Assembly (NCBI GenBank): GCA_025210455.1
Contig: JAOARQ010000049.1
Location: forward strand, 1-64,000
From: Pelagimonas sp.
Lineage (GTDB): Bacteria > Pseudomonadota > Alphaproteobacteria > Rhodobacterales > Rhodobacteraceae
DNA length: 64,000 nt
Direction of reading: 5' to 3'
Positions 12,259-62,989 of the stretch are shown here, in pieces (the stretch's first letter is position 1; every line of letters begins with the position of its first letter). The notes below the pieces were generated by a model. The model had not been told where the DNA came from. It did not search any database and worked only from the letters and a program-made list of their open reading frames with translations. A program made the position numbers and the translations under genes.

Positions 12259-12288
12259 AAGCAAAAAGCGCCCCACCAAGGGGGCGCT
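12259..12288 (-). terminator. Terminator of phaB
   Basis: On the minus strand AGCGCCCC pairs with GGGGCGCT and is followed by TTTTTGCTTTT, just downstream of the acetoacetyl-CoA reductase gene. Confidence 0.8.
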
Positions 12289-12322
12289 CTTCAAGCCCTT
12301 GCGGGCTTTCCTCGCGCGGCGC

Positions 12323-13045
12323 TTAAACGAAGAACTGCGCGCCGTTGGCCGAGATGGTCGAGCCATTGATAAAGCCTGCATCGTCAGAAGCCAGGAAGGT
12401 CACGCAGCGCGCGATTTCCTCTGGCTCGCCCAGACGGCCAGCTGGGATCTGACCGATGATCGATTCACGGACTTTTTCAGGCACGGCCATAACCATTTCG
12501 GTGGCGATATAGCCGGGGCAGATTGCGTTGGCGGTGATACCCGCGCGCGCGCCTTCCTGCGCCAGCGATTTGACGATCCCCAGATCACCGGCTTTGGTGG
12601 CGGCATAGTTCACCTGCGCGAACTGGCCTTTCTGACCGTTGATCGAGCTGATCACGATGATACGGCCGAACTTGCGTTCGCGCATGCCGGGCCAGATCGG
12701 ATGAATGGTGTTGAACACGCCGGTCAGGTTGGTGTCGATCACCTCTTTCCACGCTTCTGGGGTCATCTTGTGGAAAGGCGCATCGCGGGTGATGCCAGCG
12801 TTGGCCACAACCACGTCGATGGGGCCAAGATCGGCTTCGACCTGCGCCAGACCTGCTTTTGAGGCCTCGTAATCGGCAACGTTCCATTTGTAGGTTTTGA
12901 TGCCTGTTGCTTCGGTGAAGGCTGCGGCCTTTTCATCGTTGCCCGCATAAGTGGCGGCCACTTCGTAACCTTCCGCTTTCAGCGCTTTTGAAATTGCTTC
13001 GCCGATGCCGCGGCTGCCGCCGGTCACAAGTGCTACTCTTGCCAT
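12323..13045 (-). CDS. phaB: Acetoacetyl-CoA reductase
   Basis: PhaB reduces acetoacetyl-CoA to (R)-3-hydroxybutyryl-CoA with NADPH, the second step of polyhydroxybutyrate synthesis. The 240-residue short-chain dehydrogenase has TGGSRGIG at residues 8-15, NAG at about 82, and catalytic Ser133/134, Tyr147 and Lys151 in SSINGQKGQFAQVNYAATK. GGAGG sits just upstream of the start. phaA lies upstream on the same strand, but a terminator and about 130 further bases separate them, so phaB probably also has its own promoter. Confidence 0.95.
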   Translation of the reverse strand: MARVALVTGGSRGIGEAISKALKAEGYEVAATYAGNDEKAAAFTEATGIKTYKWNVADYEASKAGLAQVEADLGPIDVVVANAGITRDAPFHKMTPEAWKEVIDTNLTGVFNTIHPIWPGMRERKFGRIIVISSINGQKGQFAQVNYAATKAGDLGIVKSLAQEGARAGITANAICPGYIATEMVMAVPEKVRESIIGQIPAGRLGEPEEIARCVTFLASDDAGFINGSTISANGAQFFV

Positions 13046-61517: not shown

Positions 61518-62309
61518 TTAGTGGCCGTGACCCTGCGCGGCGAAGAAATCGCTGAGCAGGCGGGCGTATTCAGTGGGGTTTTCGACGCAGGGCAGGTGGC
61601 CTGCACTGCGGATCAGTTCCATGCGTGAACCGGGGATGAGATCAACGGTTTCGCGCACGAGATCGGGCGGGGTTGAGCCATCTTCGGTGCCCGCAATGCC
61701 CAGCGTAGGCAGGCGTAACCCGCTGGTTGATGAGATGAAATCCGTGCCTGCAATGGCCGAGGCGCAGCCTGTCCAGCCATCGGCAGGGGTGGTGAGAAAC
61801 ATATTGCGCCAGGCGGGAAAGGCGCTGGATTTATGGAAAGGTTTTGAAAACCAGCGGTCCATTGTCGGATCGGCGATGGCCTGAAGGCCACCCGCTTTGA
61901 CGCTTTCAATACGGTCTTGCCACATGCCGCGGGTGCCGATTTTGGCCGCGGTGTTTGACAGCACAAGGGCGCGCACCAGATCGAGACGCTTGGCTGCCAG
62001 CCCCTGGGCGATCATGCCACCAATCGAGAGGCCGACAAAGATGGCATTGCGAAAGCCCGCCAGATCCATCAACTGTTCTACATCACGCACCAATGCGCCC
62101 ATGGAATAGGGGCCGGGGGGCACGTCTGACAGGCCGTGGCCGCGTTTGTCAAACCGCAGGATGCGCAACCCATCGGGAAGCAGCGGCAGGATATCATCCC
62201 ACAGCCGCATATCAGTGCCCAGAGAATTGGCAAAAACCACCGGTGTGCCATCATCGGGGCCGGTGATTTTATAGTGCAGGCGGATATCGCCAGTCTGAGA
62301 CATCTGCAT
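61518..62309 (-). CDS. pcaD: 3-oxoadipate enol-lactonase
   Basis: PcaD hydrolyses 3-oxoadipate enol-lactone to 3-oxoadipate. The 263-residue alpha/beta hydrolase has the oxyanion region NSLGTDMRLWD, nucleophile Ser in VGLSIGGMIA, and the His in SAGHLPCVENP. It is first in the pcaD-pcaB-MFS-adh-enolase order, upstream of which lies the palindromic mobile-element remnant. An ATG two codons downstream (62303) is an alternative start. Confidence 0.92.
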   Translation of the reverse strand: MQMSQTGDIRLHYKITGPDDGTPVVFANSLGTDMRLWDDILPLLPDGLRILRFDKRGHGLSDVPPGPYSMGALVRDVEQLMDLAGFRNAIFVGLSIGGMIAQGLAAKRLDLVRALVLSNTAAKIGTRGMWQDRIESVKAGGLQAIADPTMDRWFSKPFHKSSAFPAWRNMFLTTPADGWTGCASAIAGTDFISSTSGLRLPTLGIAGTEDGSTPPDLVRETVDLIPGSRMELIRSAGHLPCVENPTEYARLLSDFFAAQGHGH

Positions 62310-62379
62310 TGTAAACCTCTTTCGTTAAAATGAGGTTTACCGCGTTGTCGTCAGCCGCGAAAGCCGCCTTGTTGCCTTA

Positions 62380-62561
62380 GGGTCTGTTGACATCCAGCGC
62401 GCGCCCCCGGCGCGAGACGAATTTTGCTCGGCGCTAGGCATTTTGACCGCTGCGATCTGGTTGATCACGAGGGAAAAATAACGCCGCGATGGGCAAAATT
62501 CGCCGCGTCTCTTCGAGATTTGGCCAAAATCCGGGGGTGCGAGGTGAATGTCAACAGACCC
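62380..62561. mobile_element. MITE-like palindromic element flanked by TA
   Basis: A 182-base non-coding element has perfect 14-base ends, GGGTCTGTTGACAT at 62380-62393 and its complement at 62548-62561; with mismatches the ends extend to about 31 bases (CACCCCCGG region). An internal inverted copy of CGAATTTTGC occurs on each arm. TA flanks both sides (62378-62379 and 62562-62563), fitting a 2-bp target duplication of an IS630 or IS5-group element. The FKBP stop codon TAG is formed from the flanking TA plus the element's terminal G. Confidence 0.65.
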
Positions 62562-62989
62562 TAGTTGATCGAGACGATTTCGAAATCAAAGGTCAGCGCC
62601 TTGCCTGCCAGAGGGTGGTTTGCGTCAAGGGTGACTTCGGTGTCTGTCACGTCGATCACGGTGACCATGATGATTTCACCCGTGGGCGATTGCATCTGCA
62701 GCTGTGTGCCCAGATCTAGCGGAATGTCAGCCGGGATTTCGGCGCGCGGAATGGCCTGACGGGCCTCTTCGTGGACGGGGCCATAGGCCTCTTCCGGGGC
62801 GATATCGACCTTTTTCTTTTCACCCACTTCCATGCCGGGCAGGGCCTTGTCGAGACCGGGAATGATCTGACCGGAACCCACTGTAAATTCAAGGGGATCG
62901 CGCCCCTCTGAGCTGTCGAAAACCGATCCGTCTTCGAGGGTGCCGGTGTAGTGAATGCGCACGGTGTCGCCGGATTTGACCTGCGTCAT
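62561..62989 (-). CDS. FKBP-type peptidyl-prolyl isomerase (SlyD-like)
   Basis: A 142-residue FKBP isomerase of the SlyD group, with GDTVRIHYTGTLEDGSVFDSS, DPLEFTVGSGQIIPGLDKAL and a flap-insert (about residues 66-125). The C-terminus ANHPLAGKALTFDFEIVSIN is typical of intact family members. It would assist protein folding. ATG 62989 (MTQVKSG) is chosen over a longer upstream frame. Its stop codon sits on the boundary of the palindromic element. Confidence 0.92.
   Translation of the reverse strand: MTQVKSGDTVRIHYTGTLEDGSVFDSSEGRDPLEFTVGSGQIIPGLDKALPGMEVGEKKKVDIAPEEAYGPVHEEARQAIPRAEIPADIPLDLGTQLQMQSPTGEIIMVTVIDVTDTEVTLDANHPLAGKALTFDFEIVSIN

Follow-up and report, generated by a model that had tools for sequence, protein, structure and literature searches.

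A shortened MITE at the stop codon of a Pelagimonas FKBP gene and its relation to a twin-hairpin element family of Pseudomonadota

What is the long palindrome that separates two genes of a Pelagimonas sp. genome, and why does one of its edges coincide with a stop codon? The locus lies in a stretch of 64,000 nucleotides (contig JAOARQ010000049.1 of assembly GCA_025210455.1, positions 1 to 64,000; hereafter the window), for which coordinates below carry no strand unless one is given. A gene for an FKBP-type peptidyl-prolyl isomerase of 142 amino acids (62561..62989, minus strand, ATG at 62989) has its stop on the boundary of the element, and 3' of it lies an alpha/beta hydrolase gene (61518..62309, minus strand) that is putatively pcaD-like, a name taken from an earlier sequence-only reading of this DNA, and whose start codon is 69 nt from the element. 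That reading had described a TA-flanked palindrome with terminal inverted repeats (TIRs) and an internal inverted repeat, all of which we recover. The element spans 62378..62563, coordinates that proved correct and amount to 186 bp counting both TAs or 182 bp without them, with the target duplication represented by a left TA (62378..62379) and a right TA (62562..62563). Its TIR, GGGTCTGTTGACAT, has 14 perfectly matched bp, or 16 with the TA, and the longer imperfect arms (62378-62410 and 62531-62563) proved to be 33 nt long and 88% complementary, forming a terminal stem; the internal inverted repeat pairs 62413-62434 with 62486-62507. Allowing up to 3 mismatches, the TIR pattern occurs twice in the 64-kb window, at the two ends of the element, compared to 0.01 expected occurrences. 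RNA folding of the element gives -101 kcal/mol versus -63.4 +/- 4.1 for shuffled sequences (z -9.25). The element contains no transposase gene and, at 186 bp, is too short for one.

The same reading had proposed a non-autonomous miniature inverted-repeat transposable element (MITE) that should recur elsewhere in the genome, and whole-genome blastn indeed found nine related copies at different sites. These copies, here called family A, comprise seven of 270/271 bp, the 186-bp copy of the window, and one of 112 bp (C24:66102). In the full-length plan, a terminal stem some 33 bp long encloses a 97-nt hairpin in sense orientation, an 11-nt mini-hairpin, and a 97-nt hairpin in antisense orientation. 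The window copy is a deletion derivative of this plan that is without about 85 bp and keeps family positions 1-155 and 239-271: its first 155 bp are 95% identical to the copy at C28:86460 and are joined to the final 33 bp of the consensus of the family, and the breakpoints of the deletion share the dinucleotide CC. It consequently retains the left 33-nt arm of the terminal stem (62378..62410, plus strand), in which the perfect TIR occupies the outer 16 nt (TAGGGTCTGTTGACAT), an intact copy of the conserved sense hairpin (hairpin 1, 97 nt, 62411..62507, plus strand), the central 11-nt mini-hairpin TCTC-TTC-GAGA (62508..62518; helix 5, with 100% of cells paired), and the right arm with its TIR (62531..62563, minus strand), as delimited by comparison with the family copies. 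Of hairpin 2 only a remnant is left (62519..62530), whose deletion junction, placed by comparison with full-length copies, lies at the CC common to both breakpoints. The 112-bp copy has lost the DNA between two ATTTTGG repeats, and each of these two derivatives occurs once. Elsewhere in the genome, a lone right end of family A (TGAATGCCAACAGGACCTA; L059, G000:C31:72505-72534) is apparently a remnant.

The claim that the element completes the FKBP stop codon holds in part. The stop TAG (62563-62561, minus strand) does consist of the flanking TA, which supplies its first two bases, plus the first G of the element, but joining the flanks of the window site with one TA gives ...ATC AAC TAA, so the stop predates the insertion and was changed from TAA to TAG rather than created. 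Comparison of the FKBP 3' end with that of a relative points the same way: in one congener (G001) an FKBP gene (88% identical) and pcaD follow each other in the same order, the element is absent from this orthologous junction, and the stop lies at the same codon, where it reads TGA and is followed by sequence that differs from that of the window. In place of the element, the congener has a GC-rich hairpin and a T-run. Together with the very stable fold of the element and its position between two genes of the same direction, this arrangement would be compatible with an insert that serves mainly for transcript termination or RNA processing between FKBP and pcaD, and the tail-to-tail bias of MITE-like repeats in Pseudomonas fluorescens has been interpreted as terminator avoidance (PMC2718517). 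We nevertheless consider such a regulatory role improbable: no T-run follows the hairpin of the element, a terminator search found none inside it, hairpin 2 is missing from the window copy, and other copies lie at many unrelated sites. The earlier suggestion that the hairpin ends transcripts thus has no direct support.

Landing on a stop codon turned out to be recurrent. Over 84 distinct insertion sites of such elements, the target consensus is YTAR with a 2-bp TA duplication, and at most of these sites the TA is preceded by C or T and followed by G or A. Where open reading frames of at least 200 codons meet element ends, the boundary TAG is in frame (frame 0) at 35 ends, compared to 5 and 4 ends for frames 1 and 2 (p = 4e-10 for a comparison among the three reading frames at element ends). 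The rebuilt empty site already reads TAG or TAA at 41 of 43 frame-0 ends (open reading frames of at least 120 codons), and a gene stop codon is found at one end or more in 35 of the 84 sites and at both ends in 5. This recurrence follows from the YTAR target together with element ends that read TAG. Since the elements read TAG inward from either side, a TAA or TAG stop that is hit becomes a TAG stop and the protein remains unaltered, as demonstrated by the sequences and the frame statistics. YTAR targeting and selection against insertions within genes may wholly explain the pattern, and such harmless landing accounts for a recurrent annotation oddity. At one locus of the host genome (L247 near 1470, G000:C51), two ends of a second element family, family B, abut as CCTGACCCTAGGGTCTGG and thereby create a new CTAG, so that one element may serve as a target for another.

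Which transposase could move an element that encodes none? A scan of 84,980 genomes with a 19-nt TIR pattern produced over 115 matching stretches, from Alpha-, Beta-, and Gammaproteobacteria, Nitrospira, and Entotheonella. Many pairs of ends are spaced about 270 bp, and others, spaced 848-875 bp, enclose a frameshifted IS5-family transposase. The full-length insertion sequences (ISs) with the same ends that a non-autonomous element leads one to expect were found in other bacteria: at four loci (L089, L091, L100, and L135), TA-flanked ISs of 848-875 bp have the TIR of the element and contain a frameshifted IS5 transposase (NF033580, PF13340). IS427-group ISs of Paracoccus (e.g., IS1248 and ISPpa2) are 832-865 bp long with mostly 2-bp direct repeats and two overlapping open reading frames (PMC3281130). 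In the host genome, a relic at C39 that begins TAGGTCGTGTTGACATTCA and an 864-bp IS at C54 have family A-like ends, and both look decayed from their sequence; a search of this genome found no complete, clearly active IS with exact family A ends. The number of copies, their TA flanks and target, the ends in common with ISs, and the element-free congener junction strongly suggest that IS427-group transposases would mobilize the element in trans, and the copies elsewhere in the genome, the congener, and the same-ended ISs support the non-autonomous MITE of the initial reading. A static intergenic repeat of the REP, ERIC, or CIR kind would likewise be palindromic, short, extragenic, and multicopy. 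We see hardly any prospect that the element is of this sort rather than transposable, given TIRs that match transposase-bearing ISs, TA flanks at YTAR, copies at different sites, and a patchy presence (18 of 295 genomes of the host's family, a lower bound), with the congener lacking the element; CIR, moreover, is about 110 bp long with two arms and no TIR (PMC2229807). Also noted were a 164-bp element with the same TIR and a single long hairpin (L133 3387-3550) and shorter TIR pairs of 74-96 bp at three loci (L081, L107, and L114). A scan of viral contigs with the TIR pattern gave four ends, with a hairpin match at none of them.

The interior of the element extends further than its ends. An earlier phylum-wide search for paired TIRs demanded one exact TIR and reached two genomes only; we therefore used R1, a covariance model of the 97-nt hairpin, for scans within Pseudomonadota. 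R1 scores the window's hairpin 1 at 83.5 bits (E about 1e-16) and, in the host genome, also finds the hairpin in three more element families with the ends TAGGGTCAGGATGCATTAA, TAGGGTCAGGACCCATTAG, and TAGGGCCTGTTCACACTAT. The host genome thus contains four TIR families (A-D) carrying the core, three of which match different resident IS5-family elements: besides the A-like ISs, the ends of an 836-bp IS5-family IS at C22 (TAGGCTCAGGATGCATTGA / TAGGGTCAGGATTCATAAC) resemble family B, and those of an 871-bp one at C26 (TAGGCTCAGGCCTCATAAC / TAGGCTCAGGACCCATTGA) resemble family C. R1 found no hairpin in the ISs examined here, and for one element family of another genome (G751) no IS with matching ends was found. 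At least 114 of 398 sampled Pseudomonadota genomes and at least 18 of 295 genomes of the host's family have R1 matches, both counts being lower bounds with few candidates scored per genome. Element length is 266-275 bp at 69 of the 84 insertion sites, with many unrelated TIRs. When R1 was run on 193 kb of largely unrelated DNA, it returned the window copy, one true copy in another genome (L217 in G004), two weak matches, and no unexplained strong match. A weak match in the window itself (12269-12353, plus strand; 20.9 bits, E 0.03-0.05) is probably chance or a degraded hairpin, and two R1 matches 1.2 kb apart on a short contig of the host genome (L249 and L251, G000:C38:159 and 1353) are possibly a tandem duplication or an assembly repeat. 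Plasmid searches with the host consensus and two other families gave no matches; a fourth family is present on Pseudomonas and Azotobacter plasmids, with no feature annotated under the matches. One such twin-hairpin element (L317 1501-1769, NZ_CP017294.1) lies unannotated on a conjugative IncP plasmid of Pseudomonas aeruginosa, is 78% identical to an element at a further locus (L302), and has relatives on the Azotobacter plasmids.

Elements of different bacteria have little internal sequence in common and the same fold plan: the 33/97/11/97/33 geometry and the +/- order of the hairpins are kept across Alpha-, Beta-, and Gammaproteobacteria, and hairpin 2, when read backward, has the same fold as hairpin 1 read forward. 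Of 36 hairpin pairs, 35 have the sense copy before the antisense one, and 22 have a spacer of 11 nt. An alignment of seven host copies and four relatives has double compensatory changes in 41 of 101 pairs, compared to 20.2 +/- 2.7 in shuffled and 6-10 in slid controls. Covariation is seen at 25 of 26 pairs among 25 aligned hairpins, and 93% of cells are paired among 107 hairpins versus 55% in shuffles. In a non-redundant set of 51 hairpins, the stems carry all pair types near saturation and the internal-loop bases (CAAGGC / AACGC) are near fixed (alignment columns A28 in 46, G29 in 47, C90 in 43, and G91 in 45 of the 51). An excess of G-T over A-C pairs would indicate folding of the sense strand; the excess seen lies chiefly in two columns, without which the counts are 35 versus 24, or 17 versus 5 at stricter redundancy, and it does not discriminate between selection on RNA or a single strand and selection on the double strand. 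The only element with both hairpins in the same orientation (-,-) is from Solimonas aquatica (L082 6817-7087), and two family D elements of 309 bp in the host genome (L246 and L248, G000:C28:16124 and C32:89252) have a spacer of 51 nt, not 11 nt.

Covariation and the covariance model together show that the twin-hairpin architecture has been conserved across Pseudomonadota despite the turnover of stem sequences and TIRs. Paired changes need not mean function, since template switching can correct palindromes and yield compensatory changes without selection. On this basis the element could be an ordinary MITE, i.e., a deletion derivative of an IS5-family IS whose palindromes are a by-product of such correction and whose fold does nothing; its ends and target fit IS427-group ISs, and the asymmetry of G-T over A-C pairs sits mainly in two columns. 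We judge this account unlikely, though it deserves to be taken seriously, because the core resembles no IS interior (R1 has no match in the ISs found), is common to elements with unrelated TIRs, and has kept its geometry and hairpin order across three classes. The conserved loop bases and fixed lengths, next to stems near saturation, are likewise harder to explain by template switching than the paired changes are. As candidates from other mechanisms, attC sites, REP/RAYT, and IS200/IS605-type hairpins were set aside: a DDE transposase is in keeping with the ends, the TA duplication, and the YTAR target, and the +/- order of the hairpins does not match single-strand transposition signals.

We thus favor an explanation in which IS5-family transposases of the IS427 group would move the element in trans by acting on its TIRs, inserting it at YTAR and duplicating the TA. 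The shortened window copy would have landed in the FKBP stop codon and regenerated a TAG stop, the hairpin, either in RNA or in DNA that is single-stranded or cruciform, would help the element persist or move, and the core would swap or adapt its ends so that any IS427-group IS at hand could be exploited. Taken as a whole, this combination of a trans-mobilized, shortened MITE, a stop-codon landing, a conserved functional fold, and exchangeable ends is very probably correct. Within it, the exchange of ends between cores is suggested by one core behind unrelated TIRs, and the putative function of the fold would lie in the element's own spread or tolerance. More tentative, and in our estimate slightly more doubtful than probable, is the stronger proposal that the hairpin is a functional structured RNA or single-stranded DNA defining one ancient, phylum-wide lineage in which an inverted pair of hairpins repeatedly changed its ends to parasitize IS427-group transposases, so that the fold, not the ends, is inherited.

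Considered as a MITE, the window copy is unremarkable. It belongs to a core family that is widespread in Proteobacteria and apparently undescribed: at the Rfam gathering score neither the element nor 12 loci with relatives had a match, and a literature search for the TIR and element type found no description, while members may be listed in ISfinder under single names. Present at about 270 bp in no fewer than 29% of the Pseudomonadota genomes sampled, the core is likely a missing entry among structured RNAs or DNAs. It also offers an accessible system, with one hairpin, many copies, and matched ISs in the same genome. Bacterial MITEs are usually viewed as IS ends around leftover DNA, whereas in this family it is the folded core that persists and the ends that change.

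Among known systems, the elements most resemble bacterial MITEs of the IS5 family (IS427 group), being short, non-coding, and multicopy with IS-shared TIRs and TA duplication at YTAR, but their core is a conserved twin-hairpin fold behind unrelated TIRs and not an IS remnant. The ISs that share the element's ends match IS427-group ISs (PMC3281130) in size, 2-bp duplication, and frameshifted transposase; unlike the window element, which is a passenger, these ISs encode transposase, and those examined contain no R1 hairpin. CIR elements of Caulobacter and Brucella (PMC2229807) are likewise alphaproteobacterial and have two stem-loop arms with a linker and TA termini, but they are about 110 bp long and have no TIR and a GANTC in the loop, whereas the elements described here have 270 bp and a TIR. 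In Pseudomonas fluorescens, the inverted repeats of R0 and R2 match resident ISs and insertion is tail-to-tail between genes (PMC2718517), yet these repeats have 89-110 bp; the distinction rests on these smaller repeats, R200 having 320 bp. Finally, Correia/NEMIS, ERIC, and RUP are MITE-like as well, being palindromic repeats that end in TA and fold stably as RNA, but they have a single stem in about 100-160 bp, RUP rides IS630, and none of them has the 33/97/11/97/33 plan that characterizes the elements described here.
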